From: Thioalkalivibrio nitratireducens DSM 14787
GTDB lineage: Bacteria > Pseudomonadota > Gammaproteobacteria > Ectothiorhodospirales > Ectothiorhodospiraceae
Direction of reading: 5' to 3'
DNA: 64,000 bases
NCBI RefSeq assembly: GCF_000321415.2
Contig: NC_019902.2
Coordinates: 1,550,001 to 1,614,000 of the forward strand
The notes beneath the pieces are model-generated. The model ran no database searches and was not told where the DNA came from. It was given only the letters and a program-made list of their open reading frames with translations. This document shows positions 4,149 through 53,672 of the stretch, one piece after another. Each line of letters starts with the position of its first letter. Position 1 is the first letter of the stretch. The position numbers and the translations under genes are program-made.

Positions 4149-4776
4149 CGTCTGGCCCTCGGCAAGGAGAGTCAAAGGCATGGCCCGCAGGCATACGCTC
4201 CGCCCGATCGCTCGGTGCAAACGGGGCTCTCCGCGCGGCGTCCGTTGCAACCGGATTGCTCGCTGCAGGATCTCGTGCGAGTACCGGCGGCCACGTTCAT
4301 CCCCGGTACGTGCTGCGGAGCGAGCGGGTACCCCGGTCGTTCCGCGGTTCTCGAAGTCGGCGCCACCATGTTCGCGGCCCGAACGCAGGGGAGGATTTCC
4401 GGCCAAGACATTCTGCCATCCGGAACAGGGGCTGGCCGGTAAATTACAAAGATGTAACCCCGCGCTCAGCCCGACGTAATCATCGGCGGTGCACCATGCG
4501 ATATCGGATGATTGCGGAAGCTCCGCGGGACCCTCGGAATTGCCTTCCGTCGCAGGAAACGGGCCTCTCGCCGAGCGGACGCTCGAACATCCATCGGCCA
4601 GAGTCTGGGCGCCCGCACCCGTGCCCCTGGAAACACCAGGAATCTCAGCACCGGTGGAGTTTTCGGGATAATCTGGGTGGCGCCTTGCCTCGGAACGGCC
4701 TCCCTGTACACGAGCCGGGCGACGTGCGGGCGACCCCTTTGTCCGACCTCGAGCCCGACACCAACCCGGATTTCCG
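4149..4776. other. 628-base gene-free interval
   Basis: I see no gene I would defend here. Open frames in all directions give Arg/Pro/Ser-rich translations typical of high-GC shadows. The one distinct element is an inverted repeat TTACA-AAGA-TGTAA at 4444-4457, reported separately. The length suggests a decayed gene or a long regulatory region between the divergent genes at 4148 and 4777. Confidence 0.4.
4444..4457. promoter_or_regulatory. Inverted repeat TTACA-N4-TGTAA, possible metal-response operator
   Basis: A perfect 5-base inverted repeat with a 4-base spacer, set in an AT-rich patch of a GC-rich interval. It resembles the half-sites bound by CopR/CusR/PcoR-type copper response regulators. 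It is about 300 bases from either flanking start codon, further than usual. Function is inferred from resemblance and from the copper-related neighbours. Confidence 0.35.
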
Positions 4777-37095: not shown

Positions 37096-37101
37096 GTGCC
37101 C

Positions 37102-38460
37102 ATGGATTCCCGCACGCTGAAACGCCGCGACCTGGCGGCCCTCTGGCACCCCTGCACGCAGATGAAGGATTACGGCGAGGAGGGCAGCCTCCCGCTGCTG
37201 GCGATTCGTCGCGGCGAGGGGGTCTGGCTGGAGGACTTCGACGGCAGGCGCTACCTGGATGCGATCAGCTCCTGGTGGGTCAACCTGTTCGGACACGCGA
37301 ACCCGGTCATCAACGCGGCAATCCGCGACCAGCTCGACGAACTGGAACACGTGATCCTGGCCGGCTGCACCCACGAACCGGTGGTCCAGCTCTCGGAGCG
37401 CCTGATCGAGAAGACTCCGGAACCCCTGACGCGCTGCTTTTTCGCCGACAATGGCAGCGCGGCGGTCGAAGTGGCGCTGAAAATGAGCTTCCATTACTGG
37501 AAGAACCGCGGACACCCGGAGAAGCAGCGCTTCATCTGCCTGAGCAACAGCTACCACGGCGAGACGCTGGGCGCGCTGGCCGTGGGCGCGGTGGAACTGT
37601 ACCGATCGACCTACGCGCCGCTGATGATGCCGGTGATCACCGTACCGGCACCCGACTGCTTCGAGCGTGAGGCGGGCGAAACCTGCGCAGACGTGGCGCG
37701 GCGCCAGTTCGCGCATATGGAACGGGCGTTGGCCGAGCACGCCGACGAGACCTGCGCGGTGATCGTCGAGCCGCTGGTGCAGTGCGCGGGCGGCATGCGC
37801 ATGCACGACCCCGAGTATCTGCGGCTGCTGCGCGCGGCCTGTGACCGCTACGACGTGCACCTGATCGCCGACGAGATCGCGGTCGGCTTCGGGCGCACCG
37901 GAACGATGTTCGCCTGCGAACAGGGGCCGATCAGCCCCGATTTCCTGTGCCTGTCCAAGGGGCTGACCGGAGGCTACCTGCCGCTCGCGGTGGTGCTGAC
38001 GACCGACGAGGTCTACGACGCCTTCTACGACGACTACGAGCGGCTCAATGCGTTCCTGCACTCGCACTCATACACGGGCAACCCGTTGGCCTGCCGTGCA
38101 GCGCTGGCGACGCTGGACATCTTCGACCGCGAGCCGGTGCTGGAACGCAACCGGGAGCTGGCCCGACACATGGGCGAAGCACTGGCGCCGCTGCGCGAAC
38201 ATCCTCACGTCGCCGAGGTGCGCCAGACCGGCATGATCGCGGCGGTCGAACTGGTGCAGGACAAGTCGGCGCGCACGCCTTTTCCCTGGCAGGAACGCCG
38301 CGGGCTGCACATCTATCGCCACGGCCTCACCCGCGGCGCTCTGCTGAGGCCGCTGGGCAACGTCAGCTACCTGATGCCGCCGTACGTGATCACCCCGGAG
38401 CAGATCGACTTCCTGGTCGAAGTGATGCGCGAGGGCATCGAACGGGCAGTGCGCAGCTGA
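37102..38460 (+). CDS. bioA: Adenosylmethionine-8-amino-7-oxononanoate aminotransferase
   Basis: Biotin synthesis enzyme that uses S-adenosylmethionine as amino donor. The 452-residue class III aminotransferase has LWHPCTQMKDY (BioA-specific N-terminal motif), ISSWWVNLFGH, GSAAVEVALKMS, and PLP Lys286 in CLSKGLTGGYLPL. An in-frame GTG at 37096 is possible, but ATG at 37102 gives the usual start. No ribosome site precedes it; a TACACT -10-like element just upstream suggests a leaderless message. No other biotin gene is adjacent. Confidence 0.94.
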   Translation: MDSRTLKRRDLAALWHPCTQMKDYGEEGSLPLLAIRRGEGVWLEDFDGRRYLDAISSWWVNLFGHANPVINAAIRDQLDELEHVILAGCTHEPVVQLSERLIEKTPEPLTRCFFADNGSAAVEVALKMSFHYWKNRGHPEKQRFICLSNSYHGETLGALAVGAVELYRSTYAPLMMPVITVPAPDCFEREAGETCADVARRQFAHMERALAEHADETCAVIVEPLVQCAGGMRMHDPEYLRLLRAACDRYDVHLIADEIAVGFGRTGTMFACEQGPISPDFLCLSKGLTGGYLPLAVVLTTDEVYDAFYDDYERLNAFLHSHSYTGNPLACRAALATLDIFDREPVLERNRELARHMGEALAPLREHPHVAEVRQTGMIAAVELVQDKSARTPFPWQERRGLHIYRHGLTRGALLRPLGNVSYLMPPYVITPEQIDFLVEVMREGIERAVRS

Positions 38461-38780
38461 CGGTCACCACGCGGGTGGCCTTTGCGCCACCCCTGGGGCG
38501 CGCGTTCCGCCCGCCGCGAATAAACCGCCGCATGTAGGTGCAGTGGAAATCACCTGGCGAACCCCGTAGTCTGCGTCGCTGGCTGGCGCCTGCTCACGGT
38601 TTCCGAAGGGGGCGGGTTGTCCGGCATCGATCCCAGCTGCCCCGCTGATGCTGAGCCGTACCGGCTGCGGGCGGGCAGGGGCGGAACGCGCACCGGACCG
38701 GCCGGGGCGTCCGCTGCAGCACCGGGTTCGCCGGAGCAGGGCGGATCCCGGCGACGACCACGAGACCGACTGGAGGAGCG
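38461..38780. other. 320-base gap between bioA and the MoxR gene
   Basis: Contains a 7-base-pair hairpin (GGGTGGC at 38473-38479, GCCACCC at 38486-38492) that may end the bioA transcript, and a GGGCAGGG octamer at 38673-38680. The downstream half must hold the MoxR promoter; GGAGGAG at about 38772 is its ribosome site. No gene or riboswitch recognised. Confidence 0.45.
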
Positions 38781-39827
38781 ATGCGACCCGCGCATTTGCT
38801 GCAAGTGCTTGACCGCGAATTTGCCAGCACCGTGGAGGGACACCATACCCCGGTGATGCTCTGGGGCCCGCCCGGAGTGGGGAAGTCACAGATGATCGCG
38901 GAGGTCGCGACCCGTAACGAAGTGCCGCTGATCGATATCCGCCTGTCGCAGATGGAGCCCTCGGACCTGCGCGGGATCCCGTTCAAGAGCGGCGACCTGG
39001 TCGAATGGGCGGTGCCGTCGATGCTGCCGGACGCCGACCGGCAGGGTCCGTCCGGCGTCCTGTTCCTGGACGAAATCACCTCGGCGCCGCCGAGCGTGTC
39101 GGCCGCTGCCTACCAGCTGATCCTGGACCGCCGGCTCGGCGCCTATGAGGTGCCGCCGGGCTGGGCAATCTTTGCCGCGGGCAACCGCCAGGGCGACCGC
39201 GGGGTGACCTATACCATGCCGGCGCCGCTGGCGAACCGGTTCTCCCATTTTGAAGTCGAGCTGAACGTCGACGACTGGGCGGCCTGGGCCTACACGCGCG
39301 GGATCGACGACCGGATCATCGCCTTCATCCGCTTCCGCCCGGACCTGCTGTTCGAGTTCGACCCGGCGCACAACCCGGTGGCATTCCCGTCACCGCGCTC
39401 CTGGGAGTTTGCGCACCGGGCACTGCAGAAGTTCGAGGCGCATCCCGAACTGCTCAGCGGCTCGCTGCAGGCCTGCGTGGGGCAGGCGGCCGGAATCGAA
39501 CTCAACGCATTCATCGCCCATCTCGACCAGATGCCCGACCTGGACGCGATCGTGCGCGGCGAGTCCGTGGACGCGCCGCGCACGATCGACTTGCAGTACG
39601 CGGTCGCGGCGGCGCTGGTCGGCCGGGCGATCCGCGCCCGGGGAACCGCGTCGTCGGTCGAGGTGCAGGGGAACATCCTGAACTACGCCAGCACTTTCCC
39701 GCAGCGCGAGATGGGCATCATGATGGTGACCGACATGCACCGGGCACTGGGCGACGATCTGTTCTCGGTGCCGCAGTTCGCCGAGTGGTCGGAACGGGTC
39801 GCCGACCTGATGCTCTACGAGGCGTGA
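38781..39827 (+). CDS. MoxR-family AAA+ ATPase
   Basis: A 348-residue AAA+ ATPase. Walker A GPPGVGKS at residues 29-36, Walker B GVLFLDEITSAPP near 91-103, and the sensor-1 AAGNRQGDRG near 132-141. MoxR ATPases act as chaperones that insert cofactors or remodel complexes together with a VWA-domain partner, which here is the next gene, 16 bases downstream. Starts at ATG 38781 after GGAGGAGCG. Confidence 0.9.
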   Translation: MRPAHLLQVLDREFASTVEGHHTPVMLWGPPGVGKSQMIAEVATRNEVPLIDIRLSQMEPSDLRGIPFKSGDLVEWAVPSMLPDADRQGPSGVLFLDEITSAPPSVSAAAYQLILDRRLGAYEVPPGWAIFAAGNRQGDRGVTYTMPAPLANRFSHFEVELNVDDWAAWAYTRGIDDRIIAFIRFRPDLLFEFDPAHNPVAFPSPRSWEFAHRALQKFEAHPELLSGSLQACVGQAAGIELNAFIAHLDQMPDLDAIVRGESVDAPRTIDLQYAVAAALVGRAIRARGTASSVEVQGNILNYASTFPQREMGIMMVTDMHRALGDDLFSVPQFAEWSERVADLMLYEA

Positions 39828-39843
39828 ACGAACAGGGCGCGCG

Positions 39844-41103
39844 GTGGTGCTGAAACTGGACGTCGAGACCAAGCTGGCAGCGGCGCGTACGCGGCTGATT
39901 ATCGACAAGCCATTTCTGGGTGCGCTGGTGCTGCGTCTGCCGCTGCAGCCTGCGCGGCCGGACTGGTGCAAGACCACGACCACCGATGCCCGGAAGCTCT
40001 TCTACAACGTCGAGTATATCGAGCACCTGTCGCTGGCCGAGACCCAGTTCGTGCTGGCCCAGGAGGCGCTGCATTGTGCGCTGCTGCACTTCGCGCGCCG
40101 GGGACACCGGGTCAAGCACCTGTGGGATCTCGCCTGCGACTTCGCGATCAACCCGATCCTGATCCACGATGGCCTGACCGCGCCGCCGGGCGCGCTGTAC
40201 AGCCATGAATACGAGGGCATGACTGCCGAGGAGATCTATCCGTTCCTGGTCGACAACGAGAACGACTCGAGCAACGAGGAGACCCTCCACGACAGGCCCG
40301 AGGAACAGCAAAGCGGCAAGGGCGAGCAGCCGCCGCCGGAACAGCAGCAGGACGAGGATCAGGGCAAAACGCAGCGACCGCAGACCGAGACCGACGAGCA
40401 GGCCCAGCCTCAGGACGGCGTCGACGAGGATCGCGAGGGGGCCCACGAGCCGCCGCCGCTGAGCGCGCAGGAGCGCGAGACGCTCGAAGTCCAGTGGAAA
40501 CAGCGCCTCGCCGGGGCCGCGCAGCAGGCGATGCAGGCTGGAAAACTCAGCGGCGAACTCGCGCGGCTGGTCGACTACGTGTTGGAGCCCAGGCTGCCCT
40601 GGCGTATGCTGCTCGCGCACTACATGACCGCGCAGGCGCGTGATGACTACAGTTATACCCGGCCCTCGTCGCGCCGGGGCGAGCCCGCGATCTTCCCCAG
40701 CCTGCGCAGCCACCAGCTCGAGGTGGTCGTCGCGGTCGACACCAGCGGGTCGATCACCGGCGAGGAGATCGCCGAGTTCGTCTCCGAGATCGACGCGATC
40801 AAGGGCCAGATCCGGGCCCGCGTGGTACTGCAGGCTTGCGACGAGCGCCTCTGCCCGGATGGGCCATGGACCTTCGAGGCGTGGGAGACGCTCGAGGTGC
40901 CGGCATCGTTCACGGGCGGCGGCGGCACCGACTTCAAGCCGGTGTTCGAGTGGGCCGACCGGCTCGACCGGGCGCCGGATCTTCTGGTCTACTTCACCGA
41001 TGCCGAGGGTTCGTTTCCGCGGACGCCGCCACATTACCCGGTGATCTGGCTGGTCAAGGGCAAGGCCTCGGTGCCCTGGGGCCAGCGCGTCCAGCTGAAC
41101 TGA
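39844..41103 (+). CDS. VWA/metallopeptidase-like protein (DUF2201 type), partner of MoxR ATPase
   Basis: A 419-residue cytoplasmic protein. The N-terminal part (1-120) has a metallopeptidase-like helix with Glu74, His77 and His82 (QEALHCALLHF) but not a full HExxH. Residues about 138-215 form a strongly acidic Gln/Glu/Pro-rich linker. The C-terminal VWA-like domain has MIDAS residues Asp299, Ser301 and Ser303 (AVDTSGSIT), then GGGGTDFKP and FTDAEGSFP. The pair MoxR plus VWA protein is a known chaperone arrangement. Start is GTG 39844 (or 39847). The client may be encoded nearby (DsrS-like or rhodanese), which is inference. Confidence 0.88.
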   Translation: MVLKLDVETKLAAARTRLIIDKPFLGALVLRLPLQPARPDWCKTTTTDARKLFYNVEYIEHLSLAETQFVLAQEALHCALLHFARRGHRVKHLWDLACDFAINPILIHDGLTAPPGALYSHEYEGMTAEEIYPFLVDNENDSSNEETLHDRPEEQQSGKGEQPPPEQQQDEDQGKTQRPQTETDEQAQPQDGVDEDREGAHEPPPLSAQERETLEVQWKQRLAGAAQQAMQAGKLSGELARLVDYVLEPRLPWRMLLAHYMTAQARDDYSYTRPSSRRGEPAIFPSLRSHQLEVVVAVDTSGSITGEEIAEFVSEIDAIKGQIRARVVLQACDERLCPDGPWTFEAWETLEVPASFTGGGGTDFKPVFEWADRLDRAPDLLVYFTDAEGSFPRTPPHYPVIWLVKGKASVPWGQRVQLN

Positions 41104-41106
41104 GCC

Positions 41107-42237
41107 ATGCTGACGCCGGAAGACAGTCTGCGCCTGAACGTCCTGCTCAAGCAGGATCTGCGTGCGCTGCGCATCGACGAGGGCAAGATGACGGTGCACG
41201 CGCTGACCGGGCGCGGCGAGGCGCGCATCGTGCTGAACCCAAACTGCCCGGACGACAAATACCTGCGCCAGGTACGCGAGGTGATCTCGAGCGCGGTACT
41301 GGGTGTGCCACACGGGTACCCAGCCTACCTGAAACGCTGGACGCGCAGGGTAGGGCACGCGCGTACCGAGAGCCTGGAGGGCCTGCTCAAGCTGGGTGAA
41401 CCGGAAGCGCTGGCGGCCGTGGTGCATGCGAGCGGGCTGACCGACGAACTCGCCAGCCGCGCGTGGTGGCTGCTGCAGTCGTCGGACCATGCCCGGGCGA
41501 TGCTGCGGCGCGAGGCGGTCGTCAACGGCAGCATGGGGCGCGTGCTCGCCGATTTCCTGGTGGAATTTCTCGCCTACGAGGAACAGCCGGCGCAGATGGT
41601 GGAATCCGTACGCCTGGTGCTCCAGCCGGGGCTGATCGACGAGCCGGTGCGCCTCGACCTGTGGAAGAAGGGACAGCGCAAGACCGCCTACCGGGTCGGG
41701 TTCCTGAAGACCACCCCCGATACGCTGCCGCACGACCGGGTGCCACACCCGCGCCACGGTGACCTCGCCCCGGTGCTCGCGGTCGCGGCCGGGCAGGGCA
41801 ACGAGTTTGCGGCCCAGTTGCTGCGCAGCCTCGACGCTCCCGGCCAGGCCTACCTCGATACGGTGCGGCTCGCGTTGTCGAAATGCTCAGACCAGGGCGT
41901 GGTCGTACACCTGTTCGAGGCGATCGAGAATTACTTCGCCCCGGTCCGGCCCAGTGCGGCCGGACACCGCAGCATGGAGTATCTGATCGACGACGCCACC
42001 CGGATGGACGCCTGTGTCGCCGACCCGGAACGCTGCCGGCAGTTCCGGGAGTTGCGCAGCGCACTGCCCTCCGGGGACCAGCCGCTGCTCGAGAGCCTGC
42101 TGGTGATGGGACTGGTCGGCGAGCCGTTGCTGGCGCCGATCTTTGGCAACACCGATGCCGTGGGTTCGGGGCTGCGCATGGCGCTGGATCCGGTCACGCG
42201 TGGCCTGTTTCCGCACCTGGACCGCCTGTGTCCCTGA
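41107..42237 (+). CDS. dsrS: DsrS-like soluble protein (sulfur-oxidation associated)
   Basis: A 376-residue soluble protein without signal or membrane helices. I recognise it as resembling DsrS, encoded at the end of the dsr operon in purple sulfur bacteria and of unknown biochemical role in oxidation of stored sulfur. Characteristic stretches: MLTPEDSLRLNVLL, ALTGRGEARIVLNP, GYPAYLKRWTR, LVLQPGLIDEPVRLDLWKKGQR. No catalytic motif is visible. It starts three bases after the VWA gene, so it belongs to the MoxR-VWA operon rather than to a dsr cluster here. The assignment is from memory of the family. Confidence 0.55.
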   Translation: MLTPEDSLRLNVLLKQDLRALRIDEGKMTVHALTGRGEARIVLNPNCPDDKYLRQVREVISSAVLGVPHGYPAYLKRWTRRVGHARTESLEGLLKLGEPEALAAVVHASGLTDELASRAWWLLQSSDHARAMLRREAVVNGSMGRVLADFLVEFLAYEEQPAQMVESVRLVLQPGLIDEPVRLDLWKKGQRKTAYRVGFLKTTPDTLPHDRVPHPRHGDLAPVLAVAAGQGNEFAAQLLRSLDAPGQAYLDTVRLALSKCSDQGVVVHLFEAIENYFAPVRPSAAGHRSMEYLIDDATRMDACVADPERCRQFRELRSALPSGDQPLLESLLVMGLVGEPLLAPIFGNTDAVGSGLRMALDPVTRGLFPHLDRLCP

Positions 42238-42417
42238 CCGCAATGGTGCACTGGACGTTCTTGCGCGCGCGAGCCTCGGCGAGCGCGAAAGAGACCGGCA
42301 TCGGACAGCATACACGCAGTCCCGGGCAGTCGTGGTAGGGCACTGCAAGCCCTCGCCCGCGAGCGGCCCAGCGGCGCCGGCTGCGACTCACGACCTTCGT
42401 AACACGGGAATCATGCG

Positions 42418-42900
42418 ATGAAGAAGTACATGGATCTGGTCAACGACTGCTGCCGAAATGTGCCGGAGTTGATGCCGTGGGATCTCGACGAGAAACTTTC
42501 GGCCGAACCCGACACGCTGGTGGTCGATGTCCGCGAGCCCTACGAGTTTGACGCGATGCACATCGAGGGGTCGCTCAACGTGCCGCGCGGGATCATCGAG
42601 TCGGCTTGCGAGTGGGATTACGAGGAGACCGTGCCGGAACTGGTTCGGGCCCGCGACCGCGATGTCGTGCTCGTTTGCCGTTCCGGCAACCGCAGCCTGC
42701 TGGCCGGGGCGAACCTGAAACTGCTGGGCTACGAGAAGGTATTCAGCCTGAAGACCGGGCTGCGGGGGTGGAAGGACTATGAGCAGCCGCTGGTCGACCG
42801 CGAGGGGAACCCGGTCGACCTGGACGAGGCCGACGAATACTTCATGCCCCGGCTGCGTCCGGAGCAGCAGCGCCCGGCCGATGAGCCGGAGCCGCGATAA
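42418..42900 (+). CDS. Rhodanese-domain sulfurtransferase
   Basis: A 160-residue single-domain rhodanese. LVVDVREPYEFDAMHIEGSLNVP (start of the domain, about 34-56) and the active-site loop with persulfide cysteine Cys87 in CRSGNRS are intact; the C-terminal tail (about 125-160) is acidic and Pro-rich. Cytoplasmic. It would move sulfane sulfur. The 180-base gap to the DsrS-like gene allows a separate promoter, but the pairing suggests a sulfur-metabolic context. Confidence 0.9.
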   Translation: MKKYMDLVNDCCRNVPELMPWDLDEKLSAEPDTLVVDVREPYEFDAMHIEGSLNVPRGIIESACEWDYEETVPELVRARDRDVVLVCRSGNRSLLAGANLKLLGYEKVFSLKTGLRGWKDYEQPLVDREGNPVDLDEADEYFMPRLRPEQQRPADEPEPR

Positions 42901-43152
42901 CGATCATGCCGATCCGCGCCATCACCCCTGGACACAGTGGTCCGTGTGGCTTCCGTGGCTGCATTGTCACGCTGCCGGCCGCGCGCCCCGATGGGTGCTG
43001 CAGGGCAGGGCGCGGCCGGCCGCGGGTGGCGTGGTTGCCGGCGCCGAATGCCGCCGCGGGCCCGCGGGCAACGGTCCGCCTTTCCACCAGCGGCCGGTAA
43101 TGGCCGCCGATTCGTGGTACACCTGTGACCTGGACAGGAGAACGCAGTCGCG

Positions 43153-43821
43153 ATGAAACCATTCTCTGACAAGCCCGTGCTCTATTACGTGCACGACCCG
43201 ATGTGCAGCTGGTGCTGGGCGATGGCACCGGTGCTGGGGCAACTCCTGCGACGGCTGCCCCCGGAGATCGAGGTCCGCCGCCTGCTCGGAGGGCTGGCAC
43301 CGGACACGAACGAGCCGATGCCCGAGGAACTCCGCGAGATGGTGCAGTCCTCGTGGCGCCGAATCCAGCAGCACGTACCGAACACGAAACTCAACTTCGC
43401 GTTCTGGACAGAGTGCATTCCGCGGCGCGCCACCTACGCCGCCTGCCGAGCAGTGATCGCGGCCCGGAGCCAGGGGGGTACGTGGGAGGCTCCGATGAAC
43501 ACCGCGATTCAGCGCGCGTACTACACCCAGGCGCGCAACCCGTCGGACGAGGCGACACTGATCGCACTGGCCGGAGAGATCGGCCTGGAGGTGGCGCAGT
43601 TTCGCGAAGCGCTGCAATCGGAATCGGTGCAGCAGGAACTGGAAGCCGAGATCGCGCTGGCGCGGGAAATGGACGTCGAGAGCTTCCCGGCCCTGGTGTT
43701 TCAGGACGCGCGCGGGTATCGGCCCATCCCGATCGATTACCGGGATCCGGAGCCGATGCTGCAGGCGATCGCTACTGCCATGCGGAAGGCTGAGGCCCAG
43801 GCCGGAGCCCGCGCAACCTGA
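43153..43821 (+). CDS. DsbA-family thioredoxin-fold protein, cytoplasmic
   Basis: A 222-residue protein with a thioredoxin-fold and helical insert like DsbA/FrnE. The redox motif is Cys18-Ser-Trp-Cys21 in MCSWCWAMAP. The cis-Pro loop is ESFPALVF (about 178-185). There is no signal peptide, so it acts in the cytoplasm. Substrate unknown. GGACAGGAG precedes the ATG at 43153. It is followed nine bases later by the DUF2459-like lipoprotein gene. Confidence 0.85.
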   Translation: MKPFSDKPVLYYVHDPMCSWCWAMAPVLGQLLRRLPPEIEVRRLLGGLAPDTNEPMPEELREMVQSSWRRIQQHVPNTKLNFAFWTECIPRRATYAACRAVIAARSQGGTWEAPMNTAIQRAYYTQARNPSDEATLIALAGEIGLEVAQFREALQSESVQQELEAEIALAREMDVESFPALVFQDARGYRPIPIDYRDPEPMLQAIATAMRKAEAQAGARAT

Positions 43822-43830
43822 GGACGATCG

Positions 43831-44490
43831 ATGAACCTGTGGCTGCGAGCGCCGAATGCCGGGTCCGATGCCAGAAGAGCGGCGGTGTCCAGGCCACGCC
43901 GAATTCTCGAAGTCACCTTAATTATATCGGTCATCATTCTGATACAAGGCTGTGCTGCAACACCCGTTACGCCGCCAAAGGACGTGGTCGATCCCCGTGC
44001 GGTGTTCCTTCTGGACCACGGCCGGCATACCAGCCTGGTGGTGGCCACGCCGGCCGGCTCGATGGTTCGTTATGCGTACGGGGACTGGCGGTTCTATGCC
44101 GATCAGGACATGACACTCGGATCGGCGCTGGCGGCACTGTTCCTCAGGACACCGGCGACGCTGGCACGCCGGGAGTTGCGGGGACCGCCGGAGGCACCAG
44201 CGTTGCTGGCGCAGATGCGGGTGGGCGTCCAGGCGGTGTACCCGCTGGTGGTCTCCGGTGCCGATGCCGACCGCTTCCGCGATGAACTCGATACGCTGCA
44301 TGCGCGCGAACCTGAACGGCACCAGTACGTGGCGGTGTACGATCTCGTGTTCGCGCCGCACCCGGAGCCGTACACCTGGCGGAACAACTCGAACACCCGG
44401 GTGGCCCGGTGGCTGCGCGCGCTCGGGGCGGAGGTGCGCGGGCCGGCTCTGCTGTCGCGCTGGAAACTGCTCGAGCCGCTGGCGCAGTAA
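43831..44490 (+). CDS. DUF2459-like lipoprotein
   Basis: A 219-residue protein with a long basic N-terminus, a hydrophobic segment and a lipobox-like IQGC (Cys about 41). The mature part has HGRHTSLVV, YGDWRFYAD and NNSNTRVARWLRALG, which resemble the permuted papain-like DUF2459 family. The signal segment (43915-43955) is markedly AT-rich compared with the rest. Function unknown. A hairpin follows directly after the stop codon. Confidence 0.72.
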   Translation: MNLWLRAPNAGSDARRAAVSRPRRILEVTLIISVIILIQGCAATPVTPPKDVVDPRAVFLLDHGRHTSLVVATPAGSMVRYAYGDWRFYADQDMTLGSALAALFLRTPATLARRELRGPPEAPALLAQMRVGVQAVYPLVVSGADADRFRDELDTLHAREPERHQYVAVYDLVFAPHPEPYTWRNNSNTRVARWLRALGAEVRGPALLSRWKLLEPLAQ

Positions 44491-44499
44491 CGCATGGCC

Positions 44500-44515
44500 A
44501 GGCGCTGATGCGCCT
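44500..44515 (+). terminator. Hairpin after the DUF2459-like gene
   Basis: AGGCGC-TGAT-GCGCCT, a perfect six-base stem with a tetraloop, begins ten bases after the stop codon; a second one, CGCCTC-GAA-GAGGCG, is at 44532-44546. Neither has a clear T-run. Confidence 0.45.
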
Positions 44516-44780
44516 GTATCGACGCACCAACCGCCTCGAAGAGGCGCTCGTCCCGTCCGTCGAATCGCCCACACGCCGCGCCGTGGGGTCCAATGCCGAT
44601 ACCGATGGCACGCATGGCTTCAACCGCACAGGTGCATGTATCGGTGGCATGCACCCGATGCATCGCGGTGGAACGCACTCGAGCGCCGAACCGACGAGAG
44701 CACACGCGATATTCCGCCGGGAGATACTGAACGCGGCCATGGGAAGCGCTCGAAGGTCGGCCCCCGGCGTCCCGGAAATC
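44516..44780. other. Non-coding approach to the dif site
   Basis: No gene is supported on either strand. The translation of open frames is Ser/Arg/His-rich. The region contains only the second hairpin at 44532-44546 and leads into the dif site. Confidence 0.4.
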
Positions 44781-44808
44781 ACTTCGCATAATGTATATTA
44801 TGTTAAAT
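44781..44808 (+). other. dif: dif site (XerC/XerD chromosome-dimer resolution site)
   Basis: Left arm ACTTCGCATAA (XerC), six-base centre TGTATA, right arm TTATGTTAAAT (XerD). Centre and right arm are identical to E. coli dif as I know it, and the left arm differs only in its outer four bases, where E. coli and Pseudomonas also differ from each other. In bacteria with one circular chromosome, dif lies opposite the origin; XerCD, activated by FtsK, recombine two copies there to resolve dimers. The position between + genes on the left and - genes on the right, and the reversal of GGGNAGGG octamers, support a working terminus. Confidence 0.93.
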
Positions 44809-44811
44809 CTG

Positions 44812-44860
44812 GATTATCACGAAACCTCCTCTTCCAGCTTGCGGAGCTTCCGTGATAATC
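44812..44860. repeat. Inverted repeat next to dif
   Basis: Ten-base perfect arms GATTATCACG (44812-44821) and CGTGATAATC (44851-44860) flank a 29-base centre. It begins three bases after dif and is AT-rich like dif. It could form a stem-loop or bind a dimeric protein; it also lies beyond the 3' end of the minus-strand mtnP gene, so a transcription-stop role is possible. Not a known part of dif. Confidence 0.6.
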
Positions 44861-44907
44861 AGGTGTCGAATGGGGTGGCCTCCTCTGGCGGCAGGTATCG
44901 GACCCGT

Positions 44908-45657
44908 TCAGAGCTGGCCGATCACCTCGGGGAGCAGCTGCTTGACTCGCGCCATCCCGATTTCGAGGTTGCGCGCGATGTCATCCATCGTGATCAGGCC
45001 TTTCGAACGGCCCGCAGCCCAGTTTGCGACCACCGCGCAACATGCATAGCGCAGCTCCAGTTCCCGCGCCAGGGCCGTCTCCGGCATACCGGTCATGCCC
45101 ACCAGGTCGCAGCCGTCGCGTTCCAGGCGGTCGATCTCGGCGGCGGTCTCAAGGCGGGGCCCCTGGGTCGCCGCGTACGTGCCCTGCTCCACCGCCCCGA
45201 GGCCGAGCTCCCGCGACGCCGCAATCAGGGTCTCACGGAGCTCCTGGCTGTAGGGGTACGTCATGTCGACATGGGTCACGCCCTCCATCCCGTCACCCTC
45301 GAAAAAAGTGTGAAAGCGCGACCATGTGTAGTCGATGATCTGGTCGGGCATCGCGATCACACCGGGTGCCATCTCCACGGTAATGCCGCCAACCGCGGCG
45401 ATCGCGAGCACGGTTTCCACGCCGGCATTCCGGAGCGCCCAGAGGTTGGCCCGGTAATTCACCTGGTGTGGCGGAATCGTGTGCTGAGCCCCGTGACGAG
45501 GCAGGAAGATCACCTCGTGACCGTGGTACTGGCCGTAGGTCAGTGGCCCGGAAGGCTCACCGTAGGGGGTGTGCATCACCTCGCGGCGGGTGATTTCGAG
45601 ATCCCTGAGCCGGGTTAGCCCCGTGCCGCCGATGATCGCCAGACGTGCGTCGCTCAT
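44908..45657 (-). CDS. mtnP: S-methyl-5'-thioinosine phosphorylase
   Basis: Purine nucleoside phosphorylase family enzyme that cleaves methylthioinosine (or methylthioadenosine) with phosphate. The 249-residue protein has IIGGTGL (6-12), FLPRHGAQHTIPPHQVNYRANLWAL, and GMTGMPETALARELEL with Glu and Met of the ribose site. The base-recognition segment reads ANWAAG, as in the P. aeruginosa enzyme that prefers 6-oxopurines, in place of the aspartates of adenosine-type enzymes. Neighbouring hpt would reuse the hypoxanthine released. GAGAGGAAAG precedes the ATG. Confidence 0.9.
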   Translation of the reverse strand: MSDARLAIIGGTGLTRLRDLEITRREVMHTPYGEPSGPLTYGQYHGHEVIFLPRHGAQHTIPPHQVNYRANLWALRNAGVETVLAIAAVGGITVEMAPGVIAMPDQIIDYTWSRFHTFFEGDGMEGVTHVDMTYPYSQELRETLIAASRELGLGAVEQGTYAATQGPRLETAAEIDRLERDGCDLVGMTGMPETALARELELRYACCAVVANWAAGRSKGLITMDDIARNLEIGMARVKQLLPEVIGQL

Positions 45658-45824
45658 GCGCTTTCCTCTCGGGGCGTGCGCCCCGGCCTATGGAACGATG
45701 ATGCCCGGGTTGCGCCGCCGTCGGCCGGGACCGGGGGTGGTGACCGGCGGGCCTGCCGTACGCTGCCCGGCATCAGGCGCGGGGCATCGCAACGATCGGC
45801 GACGACGCTGCCTCCTTCGGGTAC

Positions 45825-46409
45825 TCAGGCTCCCCGCACCGCGAACACCCCGGGTGCATTGCGCAGGTAGTCATGGTAGTCCATGCCGTAGCCGAACAGG
45901 TATCGGTTCGGTGCCTGCAATGCCGCATGGTCTGCGATGATGTGCGGATCCCGTTTCGGGTTCGCCTTGTCGACCAGCACGACGCTGACGACCTGCTCGG
46001 CCCCTTCGTTCAGGCAATGCCTCCGGATCTCGTCGAGCGTGACACCTTCGTCCAGGATGTCATCGACCAACACGACCGTGCGACCGGATATCGGTGTCTG
46101 CGGTTGTGCCAGCCAGTGGAGCTGCGGCCCGCCGCGGGTCTTGCCCCGGTACCGGGTCGCGTGCAGGTAGTCGAGGTGCATCGGGAACGACCAGCGGGAA
46201 AGCAGGCCGCCCAGCAGCACCACGCAGCCGGTCATCACGCCGAGGACCAGCGGATTGCGCTCGGAAAGCACCTCGGCCGTGCTGGCAGCCAGGCGGTCGA
46301 TCGCGGTCTCCACCGCGTCGCGGCTGTGCAGGCAGTCGGCCTCGCGCAGGACGCGCCTGGCTTCGTCCGGAGAAATCAACGGAGTCTTCGTTCCCCCGGC
46401 CCCTCGCAC
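45825..46409 (-). CDS. hpt: Hypoxanthine(-guanine) phosphoribosyltransferase
   Basis: Converts hypoxanthine or guanine with PRPP to IMP/GMP. The 194-residue protein has the PRPP loop VVLVDDILDEGVTL near 112-125 and the base-binding DKANPKRDPHII and YLFGYGMDYHDYLRN near the C-terminus. The start is uncertain: GTG at 46409 is the longest option. With mtnP 167 bases downstream it forms a purine-salvage pair. Confidence 0.92.
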   Translation of the reverse strand: MRGAGGTKTPLISPDEARRVLREADCLHSRDAVETAIDRLAASTAEVLSERNPLVLGVMTGCVVLLGGLLSRWSFPMHLDYLHATRYRGKTRGGPQLHWLAQPQTPISGRTVVLVDDILDEGVTLDEIRRHCLNEGAEQVVSVVLVDKANPKRDPHIIADHAALQAPNRYLFGYGMDYHDYLRNAPGVFAVRGA

Positions 46410-46428
46410 GCGGCCGGGGGGTTGGGAT

Positions 46429-46797
46429 TCAGTAGGTGAAGGTGACGGTGTCGTCGTCCATCGCCTCGGAGATCACGTAGGCCCCGCCCACGGTCTCCTC
46501 GATCTCCGGGATCAGGTCGTCACCCCAGAGGTCCAGCGTCGGGGTGCAGACCTTGAAGGTGACGCCGGCCTCTGCGGCATCCTTGATGAAGTCGTACACC
46601 GACTTCGAGCTGCCCTCCTGCACGTACAGGTTCTCGGCGACGCCCTTTTTCGCGAGTTCGCCGGCGCGGCCGGTCAACACGACCTCGACCTCGTATTCCA
46701 TGGCCGCGGCGACGGTAGCCTGGAAGAACGGGGCACCGAGCTCCGAACCGTTGCGGGGATCGGTGTTGACCATCACGATGAGCAGTTTGTCGGCCAT
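46429..46797 (-). CDS. DsrE/DsrF-like family protein
   Basis: A 122-residue protein of the DsrE-like fold: KLLIVMVNTDPRNG at the N-terminus, a middle AMEYEVEVVLTGRAGELAKKG, and FKVCTPTLDLWG with Cys84 in the position where DsrE/TusD-like proteins carry the sulfur-accepting cysteine. Possible sulfur-relay or binding role; members outside the dsr operon are often uncharacterised. CTGGAGAG precedes the ATG and a TACAAT -10 lies upstream, so it can be expressed alone or with hpt (19 bases downstream). Confidence 0.82.
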   Translation of the reverse strand: MADKLLIVMVNTDPRNGSELGAPFFQATVAAAMEYEVEVVLTGRAGELAKKGVAENLYVQEGSSKSVYDFIKDAAEAGVTFKVCTPTLDLWGDDLIPEIEETVGGAYVISEAMDDDTVTFTY

Positions 46798-46824
46798 GAA
46801 GACTCTCCAGAAGTGAAGGTAGGC

Positions 46825-46830
46825 ATTGTA
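46825..46830 (-). promoter_or_regulatory. -10-like TACAAT upstream of the DsrE-like gene
   Basis: Read on the minus strand, TACAAT lies 27 bases before the start codon, with CTGGAGAG as ribosome site in between. No good -35. Confidence 0.45.
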
Positions 46831-47181
46831 CGGGAAGACACCCTCGCAGGGTGCACCCGGCGCGCCAAGGGTTGCACGATTGTAATGCGTCCACCGCGCA
46901 CCGGTTCTGGAACCCGTACCGGGCTTGCGGCAACCGGCGGCAGTTTCGACTCTGGCAGCCTTCGGCGCTGCGGGTATTGATGGAAATCATGTTCCCGACC
47001 GGTGCGGTGTTCCCGGCTCCAGAAGGGCACCAGCACTGCTGCAAATCGGCACGCCGGGGCCGACACGCCGCTTGTGCGAGACCCACCGGCCCCCAGAACC
47101 CCCAAGGTTCTGCCGCCAGACACAACCATCACGCGGGGCAGTACCGCCCGCGGCGCACCGGAGACGTACCAAACCCGCGCT
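46831..47181. other. 350-base gap between copA and the DsrE-like gene
   Basis: No gene supported. Open frames give Arg/Pro-rich shadows on both strands. The region may contain the copA 3' untranslated part and the DsrE-like promoter. Confidence 0.4.
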
Positions 47182-49662
47182 TCACGCCGGTGTGGGTGGC
47201 CGGAAGCGCTTCAGGCGCAGCGCATTGGTCACCACGCTGACACTCGAGAAGGCCATCGCCAGCGCCGCGAACATCGGCGACAGCAGCAGGCCGATGAACG
47301 GGTATAGGATCCCGGCCGCGACCGGCAGCAGGGTCGTGTTGTAGACGAAAGCCCAGAACAGGTTCTGCCGGATGTTGCGCAGCGTCGCCCGCGACAGCGC
47401 GATCGCGTTTGCGATCCCGAGCAGGTTGTCCGACATCAGCACAACGTCGGCCGACTCCATCGCCACGTCGGTGCCCGAACCGATCGCGATTCCGACCTCC
47501 GCCTGTGCCAGCGCAGGCGCATCGTTGATCCCGTCGCCGACGAATGCGACCCGTCGCCCACCCTGCTGCAGCTCCTGCAGCGCTTGCACCTTGCCGTCCG
47601 GCAGAACCTCGGCCACCACCCGGTCGATGTCGAGCTCGCGGGCGATCGCGTCGGCGGTGCCCCGGTGGTCGCCGGTGATCATGACCACCTCAAGGCCCTG
47701 TGCGTGCAGGCGCGCGACCGCGCTGCGCGCGCTCGCTTTCAGCGGGTCGGCGACTGCGAGCACGGCCGCGGCGTGTCCGTCAACGGCGACGAACAGGGGG
47801 GTTGCCGCACTCGCGGTGATCCGGGGGAGCGCGTCGGCAAGGCGCCGGGTATCGATGCCCTCCCCGGCCAGCAGGCGCGCCGAGCCGACCAGCACCGGGT
47901 GTCCTTCGACCTCGGCGCGGGCACCCTGCCCGACCTCTGCCGCGAACCCCTGCGCCGCAGCTGCCCGCAGACCCCGGTGTTCGGCCGCGCGCACGATCGC
48001 CCGCGCGATCGGGTGTTCGGAATGGGTCTCCACCGCGGCGGCAAGGCGCAGGATTTCGTCCGCGTCGAAACCGTCGGCGGTCTCGATGCCCATCAGCTCC
48101 GGCCGCCCCTCGGTCAGCGTGCCGGTTTTGTCCAGCGCGATCACTTCGACCGCTCGCAACGCCTGCAGTGCATCACCGCCGCGGAACAGCACGCCGATCT
48201 CCGCCCCCTTGCCGGTGCCGACCATGATCGACGTCGGTGTGGCGAGGCCCATCGCACAGGGGCAGGCGATGATCAGCACCGCCACTGCGTTCACCAGCGC
48301 GAGCGTCAGCGCCGGTGCCGGTCCGAACACGAGCCAGACTCCGAAGGTCAGCACGGCGATCGCGATCACCGCCGGCACGAAATAGCGCGTGACCCGGTCG
48401 ACCAGCGCCTGGATCGGCAGCTTGGATCCCTGGGCGGCCTCGACCATGCGGATGATCTGCGCCAGCACGGTATCGCTGCCGACGCGCGTGGCGGTGAACG
48501 TCAGGCTTCCCTGCCCGTTCACCGTGCCGCCAACGACCGGCGCCCCGGATTCCTTCAGCACCGGCAGCGGTTCTCCGGTGATCATCGATTCATCGACCCA
48601 GGAACTGCCCTCGACGACCTCCCCGTCGACCGGCAGCCGTTCTCCCGGGCGGACCAGCACCCGATCACCCGGCCGCAGCTGCGCCACGTCGATCTCCACG
48701 ATTTCGCCGGCACGGTGCACGCGCGCGGTGCGCGGACGCAGGCCCGCCAGCCTGCGGATCGCCTCGGAGGTCGCGCCCCGGGCCCTGGCCTCGAGGAATC
48801 GCCCGAGCAGCACCAGGGTGATGATCACCGCCGAGGCCTCGTAGTACACGTGCACCGTCCCCTCGGGAAGCCACCCCGGCAGGAAGGTCGCGACCACCGA
48901 GTACCCGTAGGCGGCCGAGGTTCCGAGCATCACCAGCGAGTTCATGTCGGGTGCAGCCTGGATCAGCGCCGGCCAGCCCTTGCGATAGAAACGCAGGCCC
49001 GGACCAAACTGCACCCCGGAGGCCAACACGAAGAACAGCAGGTACACGTTCCCGGTGCCCAGGGCATCGTGCACCGCATGCTGCAGTGCAGGAATCAGGT
49101 GCCCACCCATGTCGATCACGAAGATCGGCAGCGTCAGTGCTGCCGCCAGCGTCAGGCTGCGCTTCAGCGAGCGGTGTTCCGCGGCCCGCGCGGAGCGCTC
49201 CCGGTCGACCGGGTCCGGACCCGCCTCCGGCAGGCTGGCGTCGTAGCCGGCCGCGTCCACCGCTGCAAGCAGGTCGGCCGGAGCCACGAGGGCCGGCAGA
49301 TACCGTACCCGGGCGGTCTCCGCGGCGAGATTCACGTCCGCCTCGAGCACTCCCGGCAGCGCGCGCAACGCGTCCTCGACCCGCCCGACGCACGACGCGC
49401 AGCTCATGCCGCCCACCACGAGGCGGATCTCTTCGCTCCCGGGGTCGTAGCCGGCGGCAGCGACGGCCGCAACGACCGCCTGCGGGCTGGCGGTGCCGAG
49501 ATCGACGCTTGCCTGTCCGGTGGCCAGGTTGACGCTGGCACCCTGTACCCCGGGAACGGCACGAATCGCATCCTCGACCCGCGCCACACAGGACGCACAA
49601 CTCATCCCGCCGACCGGGAGTTCCAGTCGGACCGGGGGGTGATCGGCGGAGCGGCGGCCCAT
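47182..49662 (-). CDS. copA: Copper-exporting P-type ATPase with two HMA domains
   Basis: An 826-residue Cu(I) exporter of the inner membrane. Two N-terminal heavy-metal domains have GMSCASC with Cys22/Cys25 and Cys88/Cys91. Then eight membrane helices, ion site Cys467-Pro-Cys469, phosphorylation Asp511 ([13 protein letters not shown]), and [22 protein letters not shown]. It differs from the truncated ATPase at the left edge in the last helices and around CPC ([14 protein letters not shown] against CPCALGLATPTALM), so the two are paralogues, not a recent duplication. ATG at 49662. No MerR/CueR-type operator was found upstream. Confidence 0.96.
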
Positions 49663-49812
49663 GTCTCAGCGCCGCTCCCGGCATCCCGCGCCTGGTCGGG
49701 TCTTCACTGCGCAGCCTCCGGATCGGGTCGTAGCCTTTTTGGAACCGAGACGGACAGCGTCCGCCCCCGCTTCCGTCCGTAGACCACCTCCGGGGGGGCC
49801 GGCGCCCGGCGG

Positions 49813-50847
49813 TCAGGTGATGTAGGTGGGTTCGTGGTCGCCCAGTGCCAGCAACCGGGACTGTGCGGCCTCCATACGCGCGCGGTCCTCCGCCGCCGGG
49901 CGGGCACGCATGGCCTCGAGCCGGCGCTGCGTGTCGGGGTTCGGATCGCGTCCTTCCAACGTCTGCAGGATCTCGTCCGCCGCGGCGAAATCGTTGCAGA
50001 TCACGACCATGTCGCAGCCGGCGTACAGTGCCGCATGCGCCCGGTCGGCAGGCGAACCTGCGGCCCGGGCGCCGGCCATGCCCAGATCGTCGCTGAACAG
50101 CGCGCCGTCGAAGCCCCAGCGCATTCTCAGCAGGTCGTGCAGCCAGATCCCCGAGAAACCCGCGGGATTCGAATCCACGTCGGGATAGATGACATGCGCC
50201 GGCATGATGCCGCCCAGGCGCGGCAACAACGGGAGAAAGGCCGCGATGTCGTCGGCCTCGATTTCCGCGAACGGGCGCGGGTCCACCGGCACTTCCTCGT
50301 GCGAGTCCGCCGCGACGCCGCCGTGTCCCGGAAAATGCTTGCCGACCCCGGACATTCCGGCCTCGTCAAGTCCGTCCAGCAGATAGCCGCCGAGCCGGGC
50401 GATCACGTCCGCCCGATCATGAAAGGCGCGGTCTCCGATCACCTCGCTGATGCCAGCGTCGCGGTCGAGCACGGGGGTGAAGCTGAAATCCAGGCCCACT
50501 GCCTTCAGTTCCTGGGCAAGAAGCCATCCAGCATCCCGTGCCAGTTCCTGACCCCGGGGTGGATCGTAGGAGAACACGTCGCCGATGCGGCGCATCGGCG
50601 GCAGTTCGGTGAACCCCGTGCGAAAGCGCTGCACCCGCCCGCCCTCGTGATCCACCGCCAGCAGCAGTTCCGGCCGCCGCAGGGAGCGGATCGCACCGAT
50701 CAGTGCCCGGAGTTGTTCGGGGTCCTCGTAATTCCGGGTGAACAGGATGACGGCGCCCGTCGCTGGGTGCAGCAGGCGCTCGCGGTCTTCCGGGGTCAGT
50801 TCCAGACCCGTTATACCCAGCATCACCGGGCCCAGGAATTCGCTCAT
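49813..50847 (-). CDS. nagZ: Beta-N-acetylhexosaminidase NagZ
   Basis: Cytoplasmic enzyme that removes GlcNAc from anhydromuropeptides in peptidoglycan recycling. The 344-residue GH3 protein has KHFPGHGGV (Lys170-His175) with the flexible acid/base His, and nucleophile Asp253 in FSDDLGM. AVDHEGGRVQRFR is the sugar-binding segment. The frame is open to 50868, but ATG at 50847 gives the family N-terminus. Confidence 0.95.
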   Translation of the reverse strand: MSEFLGPVMLGITGLELTPEDRERLLHPATGAVILFTRNYEDPEQLRALIGAIRSLRRPELLLAVDHEGGRVQRFRTGFTELPPMRRIGDVFSYDPPRGQELARDAGWLLAQELKAVGLDFSFTPVLDRDAGISEVIGDRAFHDRADVIARLGGYLLDGLDEAGMSGVGKHFPGHGGVAADSHEEVPVDPRPFAEIEADDIAAFLPLLPRLGGIMPAHVIYPDVDSNPAGFSGIWLHDLLRMRWGFDGALFSDDLGMAGARAAGSPADRAHAALYAGCDMVVICNDFAAADEILQTLEGRDPNPDTQRRLEAMRARPAAEDRARMEAAQSRLLALGDHEPTYIT

Positions 50848-50935
50848 GGCTTCATACCGGGTTCGCACACGACAGAGTATCCAGTCTAGCGGGTTTTGCG
50901 CCGGCGGGCGCCCTCGCGGAACCGGATCACCGCCA

Positions 50936-51421
50936 TCAGCCGCCGCCAGTCAGGTGTTCCACCGTGCGCAGGCCGGGCCCGCGGAGCGCATAGGCCTTGC
51001 CAAAACCGAGCACCAGTTCCCCGGACAGCGCGTGCAGTTGAAACGCCTGGAAGTCCGGCAGCCCCTCGAGCAGGTTCAGGATACCGCCGAACCGTGCCTC
51101 GAGCGCCGCGAACGCGCCGGCCCGTATCCTGGCACCGGTCAGGCGTTCCGGCCGGCAGCGCAGCAGCATGCGTCTGCGCGCGTAGATCTGGCGGCAGTCC
51201 GCGGCATCCTCCAGCAGCAGGCAGGTGACCGGATGACCCGCCTCGAGCGCACGGTAATGCGCCGCCAACCGGCTCGAGACCACCACCAGGCCTTCCTCCA
51301 GCGATCCCGTAAACGGCAGGTGGCCGAGCGAAATGCCCTCGCCTGCTCCTGTCCCGATCACCAATCCGGGGACCGAGTCCAGGAGTCTTTCGGCCGCCCG
51401 GTGGATGTCGTGTTCGCTCAT
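50936..51421 (-). CDS. HugZ-like / pyridoxamine-phosphate-oxidase-fold protein
   Basis: A 161-residue protein with the FMN-binding split-barrel fold: PGLVIGTGAGEGISLGHLPF, EEGLVVVSSRLAAHYRAL, a middle VTCLLLEDAADCRQIYARRRMLLRC, and a short C-terminal FQLHALSGELVLGFGKAYAL. This pattern is that of the HugZ/HutZ haem-utilisation family, which binds or breaks down haem, rather than PdxH. It lacks the longer C-terminal part of HugZ. Function uncertain. Confidence 0.7.
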   Translation of the reverse strand: MSEHDIHRAAERLLDSVPGLVIGTGAGEGISLGHLPFTGSLEEGLVVVSSRLAAHYRALEAGHPVTCLLLEDAADCRQIYARRRMLLRCRPERLTGARIRAGAFAALEARFGGILNLLEGLPDFQAFQLHALSGELVLGFGKAYALRGPGLRTVEHLTGGG

Positions 51422-51605
51422 CGGTTCGCACCTCTGTTACCAAGACATCGGTTCGCGTCTCGGCGACCCGTAGAGCGGAAGCGCGCAGGGGCATCCGCCA
51501 ACGCTCCTACCGCCCCGGCGCCTGCGGCAACCACCGCGGCGCGGGAACGCCGGATGCCGGCCCTCGCCCTGTGAAGATCGCGCACAGCGCTCCGTTCCCA
51601 GCGCG

Positions 51606-53672
51606 TCAGGAACCCGTATGCAGCAGCGCGGCCTCCGGGCGGAACGCGCGTTCCTTCAGGTCCTGGATGCGGTCACGCAGCCGCGCGGCCTCCTCGAATT
51701 CGAGGTTGCGCGCCTTTTCGTACATCTCCTTCTCCAGGCGTTCGATCTCGCGAGTGGCATGGTCGGGGGTGTCGGCATACGCCGGGGGCGTCTCGGCCAC
51801 GCGACGGTCGCGCCGCCGCCCGGCCTGACGCGGATCGGCCCGTGCCTCGAGGATATCGGCGACCGCCTTGCGGATGCCCAGCGGCGTGATGCCGTGGCGC
51901 TCGTTGTGTGCCGTCTGTTTCTCGCGCCTGCGCTCGGTTTCCTCGATTGCCCGCTGCATCGAGCCGGTGACCGTGTCCGCGTACAGGATCGCCATGCCGT
52001 TCACGTTGCGCGCCGCGCGCCCGATGGTCTGGATCAATGAGCGCTCCGAACGCAAAAAGCCCTCCTTGTCGGCATCGAGGATCGCAACCAGCGAGACCTC
52101 GGGCATGTCCAGGCCTTCGCGCAGCAGGTTGATCCCGACCAGTACGTCGAACTCGCCAAGGCGCAGGTCGCGGATGATCTCCATGCGCTCGACCGTATCG
52201 ATGTCCGAGTGCAGGTAACGCACCCGTACGCCATGCTCGGACAGGTAGTCGGTCAGATCCTCGGCCATGCGCTTGGTCAAAGTGGTGATCAGCACCCGCT
52301 CGTTGCGCTCGAGGCGCAGGCGGATCTCGGACAGGCAGTCGTCGACCTGGGTGCTGGCCGGGCGCACCTCCAGCCTGGGGTCCAGCAGGCCGGTCGGCCG
52401 GACCACCTGTTCCACCACGGCCCCGGCGTGTTCCAGTTCATACGGCCCCGGAGTCGCGGAGACGTGGATCGTCTGCGGCTGCAGGTGCTCGAACTCCTCG
52501 AAGCGTAGCGGCCGGTTGTCCAGCGCCGACGGCAACCGGAAACCGTACTCGACCAGCGTCTCCTTGCGCGAGCGGTCGCCGCGGAACATCCCGCCGATCT
52601 GCGGTACCGAAACATGCGACTCGTCGATCACCAGCAACGCATCGGGCGGCAGATAGTCGAAAAACGTCGGTGGCGGCTCGCCGGCGGCACGGCCGGAAAG
52701 GTAGCGCGAGTAGTTCTCGATCCCGGAGCAGTAGCCGATCTCGAGGATCATCTCCATGTCGAACACCGTGCGCTGCTCCAGGCGCTGGGCCTCGACCAGG
52801 CGGTTCTCGTTGCGCAGGAAGTCCAGGCGTTGCTTGAGTTCCTCGCGGATCTCGTCCACCGCCGCAACCAGGGTCTCGCGCGGCGTCACGTAGTGGGTCT
52901 TCGGGTAAATCGTCAACCGCGGCACCGTGCGCAGGACTTCTCCGGTCAGCGGGTCGAAATAACTGAGCTTTTCGACCTCGTCGTCAAACAGCTCGATGCG
53001 CACCGCCTCGGCTTCCGATTCCGCCGGGTGAATGTCGATCACCTCGCCGCGCACGCGGTAGGTCGCCCGGCGCAGTTCCATGTCGTTGCGCGTGTACTGC
53101 AGCTCGGCCAGCCGGCGCAGGATTTCGCGCTGGTCCACCCGGTCGCCGCGCTTGATGTGCAGCACCATCGACAGGTACTTGCGGGGATCGCCCAGGCCGT
53201 AGATCGCCGATACGCTGGCGACGATGATCGCGTCGCGCCGTTCCAGCAGCGCGCGCGTCGCGGACAGGCGCATCTGCTCGATGTGGTCGTTGATCGATGC
53301 GTCCTTCTCGATGTAGGTGTCCGACGACGGCACATAGGCCTCGGGCTGGTAATAGTCGTAATAGGAAACGAAATATTCCACCGTGTTATGCGGGAAGAAC
53401 TCCTTCATCTCGCCGTAGAGCTGGGCCGCCAGCGTCTTGTTCGGCGCGAGGATGATCGTCGGCCGCTGCACCTGTTCGATCACGTTCGCGATCGTGAACG
53501 TCTTGCCCGAGCCGGTCACCCCGAGCAGCACCTGGTGCGCGAGGCCGGAGGCGATCCCGTCCACCAGGGCCCGGATCGCCTCCGGCTGGTCGCCGGCCGG
53601 CTGGTAACTCGACACGACCTCGAGCCGCTGGCCCGCTTCCGCCTTATCTTGCACGTCTGATTTCAGTATCAT
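51606..53672 (-). CDS. uvrB: UvrB, excinuclease ABC subunit B
   Basis: DNA damage verification helicase of nucleotide excision repair. The 688-residue protein has Walker [11 protein letters not shown] at 51-60, the beta-hairpin region [12 protein letters not shown], helicase motifs [13 protein letters not shown] and QTIGRAARN, and a C-terminal UVR motif ([24 protein letters not shown]) that binds UvrC. No good ribosome site precedes ATG 53672. Divergent from the aspartate aminotransferase gene, 58 bases apart. Confidence 0.97.

Follow-up and report, generated by a model that had tools for sequence, protein, structure and literature searches.

The dif site and its neighbourhood

The window, the 64,000-nucleotide stretch of DNA analysed here, corresponds to G000:C1:1550001-1614000 of one 4,002,350-bp contig of Thioalkalivibrio nitratireducens DSM 14787. 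Among 14 reading frames scanned in the surroundings of dif (37096-53672), 11 match ordinary cellular families, including aminotransferase, AAA, VWA-like, rhodanese, DsbA-like, hypoxanthine phosphoribosyltransferase, heavy-metal ATPase, beta-N-acetylhexosaminidase, and UvrB families, and three match none. Two of the genes frame the locus of interest: a 219-aa protein is encoded on the plus strand (43831..44490), matching nothing in Pfam or NCBIfam at the thresholds applied and with 82.6% DNA identity in Thioalkalivibrio paradoxus ARh 1 (G011), and an S-methyl-5'-thioinosine phosphorylase gene (NF006599, above cut-off) lies on the minus strand (44908..45657). Between them are the 28-mer ACTTCGCATAATGTATATTATGTTAAAT (44781-44808, plus strand) and, directly beside it, a short MITE-like remnant (44809..44863).

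We are highly confident that the 28-mer is the dif site of this chromosome, of the XerCD type. With arm boundaries set by the published 11-6-11 layout (PMC2731167), it is divided into a XerC-binding arm on the side of the 219-aa protein (ACTTCGCATAA, 44781..44791, plus strand, assigned by position and by homology to E. coli dif), the central hexanucleotide TGTATA (44792..44797, plus strand, the same as in E. coli), and a XerD-binding arm facing the phosphorylase gene (TTATGTTAAAT, 44798..44808, plus strand, identical to that of E. coli). The dif site of E. coli K-12, which is recombined by XerCD under FtsK, has the same 28-bp length and layout; we located it at NC_000913.3 1590750-1590777 on the minus strand, and 25 of the 28 bases are identical to those of the window's site. 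The mismatches fall at positions 1, 2, and 4, which are three outer bases of the XerC arm, and every base of the XerD arm, the centre, and the inner XerC arm is the same. This pattern fits the description of dif in PMC2731167, where the XerD arm and the inner bases are the best-conserved parts.

The site is also unique. A genome-wide scan for the 28-mer at up to three mismatches gave one match in 4,002,350 bp, with none for the reversed-pattern control; the same scan of the window returned this match alone (0 in 100 shuffles), and the dif arm was the only match to the XerD arm in the window at up to two mismatches. For the conserved 24-mer, about 6e-11 chance occurrences are expected in a genome of the same size and base composition. 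An earlier note on this DNA had placed a dif site at exactly these coordinates, with E. coli dif sharing its centre, its XerD arm, and the inner part of its XerC arm, and with one copy expected in the genome, and all of this is borne out; its own objection, that there might be several copies, fails. Its remark that gene-based pipelines usually skip such sites agrees with PMC2731167, according to which dif is usually missing from annotation, and with the NC_000913.3 record, which lists no feature over the K-12 site.

Chromosomal position, KOPS polarity and Xer machinery

The cumulative GC skew of the window reaches its maximum at 44510, 271 bp before dif, although the curve forms a broad plateau, some 3 kb wide (roughly 44.0-47.0 kb), and the exact distance is therefore partly luck. 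Across the genome, which was sampled by 40 spaced 10-kb samples, the skew has the expected sign in most samples: 13 of the 14 between dnaA and dif on the clockwise arm are positive, and 23 of the 26 on the other arm are negative. The position of oriC was taken from the best Bac_DnaA match, which is at 3,949,426 on the same contig as dif. Measured from dnaA, dif is located 41.2% round the circle, with replication arms of 1.648 and 2.355 Mb (41:59), and thus 353 kb (8.8% of the genome) off the antipode of dnaA. In the single-contig relatives G011, G034, and G033, the corresponding values are 48.5, 52.7, and 46.2%. In the stretch between dif and the antipode (1.595-1.948 Mb), all six samples still have negative skew (-0.013 to -0.053). 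Were the antipode the meeting point of the forks, this stretch would be copied by the clockwise fork, yet its skew stays negative; either the imbalance of the arms is young, or termination follows dif.

The octamer GGGNAGGG, which is of the KOPS type, converges on dif within the window, with counts in the two orientations of 9:0 on the left side and 1:7 on the right. When 39 samples are counted together with the window, its leading:lagging ratio is 83:22; this count leaves out one of the 40 samples, which contains a coding repeat array, and the per-arm sample counts made without that omission are 17:4 and 17:51. Among 56 patterns of the same composition, some of which are near-duplicates of each other, GGGNAGGG ranks second, and the first-ranked pattern has fewer counts (23:5).

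GAYACS-type octamers had topped the first leading-strand scan (e.g., 100:5), yet of the 40 samples only that at 100 kb contains arrays of them; these are absent from the window and reflect a repeat-coding frame. Because the arrays came from this single repeat-coding sample, it was removed and the octamer scan was redone. The sample has a feature of its own, namely an open reading frame of 833 residues or more, mostly Asp-Thr repeats (L210:1-2503; G000:C1:100001-102503), overlying tandem arrays of a 12-bp unit (138 units) and a 6-bp unit (50.5 units).

The genome encodes the proteins expected to act at such a site: XerD at 2.877 Mb (TIGR02225, 366.2 bits against a curated cut-off of 329.6), XerC at 67.9 kb (TIGR02224, 346.4 bits against a curated cut-off of 335.15), and an FtsK gamma domain at 3.017 Mb (FtsK_gamma, PF09397, E 4.4e-29). 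Three further tyrosine-recombinase genes, at G000:C1 1649363, 2958329, and 1694664 (L058-L060), have identical scores and frame lengths. L058 and L059 have an identical 2,295-bp stretch in common and are therefore likely to belong to a mobile element; L060 is on the other strand.

As in the E. coli system, a single dif copy is found together with a skew switch, an FtsK gamma domain, and converging KOPS. Two differences from E. coli, in addition to the three outer XerC-arm bases, are worth noting. A MatP profile search of the genome gave no match at E <=0.001, unlike in E. coli, and one matS-like sequence is present in the window. Moreover, given the E. coli replichore layout, the window's dif lies on the opposite strand relative to the clockwise leading strand.

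Taken with the comparison with relatives below, the skew switch and the converging KOPS lead us to infer that the dif region is the replication terminus. The earlier note had likewise called the region terminal and had expected dif at the skew extreme and opposite oriC. The first two expectations are supported, and its objection of a site far from the skew switch does not hold; the third is only approximately right, as the site is roughly opposite dnaA but displaced from its antipode by the distance given above.

A MITE-like remnant at the XerD arm

The remnant beside the XerD arm (44809..44863) consists of 49 bp with three terminal bases on each side. Its core is an inverted repeat (44812-44860) with 18-nt arms at 44812-44829 and 44843-44860, and its left terminal bases are CTG, versus CCT in most copies of the family, whose ends are CCTGATTATCACG. 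With three mismatches or fewer allowed, the arm occurs 128 times in the genome (once in the control). Among the 100 of these 128 matches listed, a hand count gave at least 39 facing arm pairs, the dif copy included. The elements delimited by these pairs are mostly near 274, 248, or 188 bp, whereas the dif copy retains the two ends only. In 21 longer copies (187-278 bp), the two ends both match the remnant; copies in the genome include L159-L178. A lone arm match with one mismatch lies elsewhere in the window (4656-4673), with no partner among the matches listed.

The size range given for MITEs is 70-300 bp (PMC3733652). The dif copy has the terminal inverted repeats and belongs to a family with many copies, but at 49 bp it is too short, and we regard it as a remnant, shortened by internal deletion; the other copies of the family that were examined measure 187-278 bp. 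Other (GTAG) repeats are described in PMC3733652 from two other Thioalkalivibrio strains.

The longer copies carry the marks of transposition: among 21 of them, the 8-bp target-site duplication is perfect in 14, matches at 7/8 in two, and at 1-4/8 in five. At the dif copy, the candidate left duplication TGTTAAAT (44801..44808, plus strand) coincides with the eight outer bases of the XerD arm. The candidate right duplication TGTCGAAT (44864..44871, plus strand) is identical to it at 6/8 positions, a similarity with a chance of 1.6% for such a spacing in the window. Next to dif, the intergenic sequences of the window and T. paradoxus align poorly, and the empty-site comparison is too weak to decide on a target duplication. 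The simplest reading is that the element inserted at the edge of dif and that its target duplication left dif whole. With a probability that we put somewhat below even, the element hit dif itself, with the outer XerD arm (TGTTAAAT) as its staggered 8-bp target, the duplication rebuilt a complete dif on one side, and the other copy then drifted to TGTCGAAT. In that case, transposition into an important site would have been neutral, since dif was restored by the duplication of the target. Either way, the remnant leaves the 28-mer intact, and we take it to be neutral.

An element against the XerD arm could also be a sign that the 28-mer is a non-functional relic, with dimer resolution taking place elsewhere or not at all. 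We consider this very improbable: the XerD arm, the centre, and the inner XerC arm are all intact, no further site in the genome comes within three mismatches, and XerC, XerD, and the FtsK gamma domain are retained. We take the site to be an ordinary chromosomal dif that is almost certainly functional.

Transposable elements next to dif have been described before. Insertion sequences of the IS1202 family (ISAjo2 group) target dif on its XerC side, where they insert at a distance of 5 bp from the arm and produce 5-bp duplications; their ends start with TGT (PMC10132070). The window resembles these cases in having the end of a transposable element within a few bases of a dif arm. Unlike the IS1202-family elements as described there, however, the window's element is on the XerD side, its family has 8-bp duplications and ends that are mostly CCT, and the copies are scattered over the genome; the combination of a 5-bp distance from the XerC arm and a 5-bp duplication is not found.

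The family has several copies in congeners too, where arm matches are numerous (18 in G011, 38 in G013, 61 in G017, and 33 in G027). The idea that the repeat family targets dif as a rule is not supported: the repeat abuts dif at none of 29 other loci, and the one flank match (L026) is about 830 bp away, within a check that covered the fetched flanks, some of them shortened by contig ends, with L179 and L180 left out. In T. paradoxus, unlike in the window, the 1.5 kb fetched on either side of dif contains no match to the repeat arm. Two other readings of the hairpin were also set aside. The strand at the hairpin folds better than most shuffles (z -2.7), but no terminator-like site was found in 44300-45100, and the hairpin is a repeat copy and not a transcription terminator. 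Compared with RNA families, it gave a single microRNA match, which was at chance level and fell far short of the gathering score.

The dif region in relatives and its proposed role

Exactly one match to the 28-mer at up to three mismatches was found in 43 of 57 relatives (own genome excluded), with no match in the other 14. Among congeners, 24 of 29 match, rising to 26 of 29 once the central six bases are left free; the dif centre in the genus is TGTATA, TACATA, or TGAATA. The three non-matching congener genomes are 80, 66, and 58% complete. One family-level relative (G032), whose genome is 98% complete, has no match with either a fixed or a free centre. For the class-level genomes, free-centre matches are about as many as those of the reversed control and are uninformative. 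The neighbourhood is conserved in the genus as well. In 25 of the 26 matching congeners, the exception being L179, the phosphorylase gene has its 3' end towards the XerD arm, across a gap of roughly 43-257 bp (937 bp in one); the gaps were counted from where the alignment stops and may be overestimated by a few bases. Outside the genus, this neighbour was seen at none of five family-level loci.

The closest comparison is with T. paradoxus ARh 1, which is described as a close species to T. nitratireducens and has a genome of 3,756,729 bp (PMC4653848). Its 28-mer is identical to the window's dif, and the same neighbouring genes are collinear along the window. This shared gene order bears on the possibility that the 28-mer is a dif-like attachment site left by a Xer-using integrative element, such as a filamentous phage or a genomic island, and not the native dif. 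Such elements do integrate at dif (PMC2731167), and a repeat copy does adjoin the site. Against this, there is no second site in the genome and no second XerD-arm match in the window at the mismatch levels given above, the gene order on both sides is common to T. paradoxus, the neighbours that match a family are cellular, and the 8-bp target duplications of the longer repeat copies are a trait of transposons. The single copy and the conserved neighbourhood largely refute an attachment site, to which we assign a near-negligible probability. The same gene order and the cellular Pfam and NCBIfam matches of 11 of the 14 frames scanned, with dif on the dnaA-bearing contig, give no sign of a plasmid or an integrated phage, a location that the earlier note had named as an objection to its reading as a chromosomal dif.

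The gene order around this native dif is inverted between the two species. When the window was compared with 200 kb around the T. paradoxus dif, 13 of the 15 blast blocks of at least 300 bp were inverted, 12 of them in one collinear series pivoting at dif and one a secondary match; the two same-direction blocks are cross-matches of 65-67% identity. The collinear inverted counterpart of the window is G011:C1:1797507-1872835. Because the blocks are inverted around dif while dnaA is on the plus strand in both genomes, the terminus is inverted relative to dnaA between the two species, with end points outside the window. The inversion is invisible in GC skew and KOPS because both are mirror-symmetric around dif, and it may be related to the 41:59 arms of T. 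nitratireducens.

KOPS converge on dif in all four relatives tested, with counts of 29:3 and 2:16 in G011, 19:2 and 0:19 in G034, 8:3 and 0:9 in G029, and 4:2 and 0:8 in G033. In three of these four, dif and the skew maximum of the fetched stretch are less than 5 kb apart. In G034 (L225-L228; G034:C1:1787001-1867000), the skew is reversed within 40 kb on each side of dif, and the KOPS polarity is as expected.

By analogy with E. coli, the site would take part in the resolution of chromosome dimers. An odd number of crossovers would join the sister chromosomes into a dimer, and septal FtsK would track along the DNA, in a direction set by KOPS octamers, until reaching dif. There, the FtsK gamma domain would activate XerD, and XerC and XerD would swap strands between the two dif copies, turning the dimer into two monomers. 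The binding of XerCD, the control by FtsK, and the recombination at this particular dif are all carried over from E. coli.

Nothing here alters current knowledge of Xer recombination, and similarity, single copy, and skew position have already served to locate dif in many genomes (PMC2731167, 2009; PMC3025954, 2011). A literature search combining Thioalkalivibrio genomes and dif sites returned no paper, and the genus does not appear in the main text of PMC3025954, although the site may still be listed in supplementary tables. The comparison with T. paradoxus shows clearly how a region can be inverted around dif while its GC skew and KOPS polarity look unchanged. More generally, dif marks the terminus in a Thioalkalivibrio chromosome and helps to orient analyses of skew, KOPS, and rearrangements.
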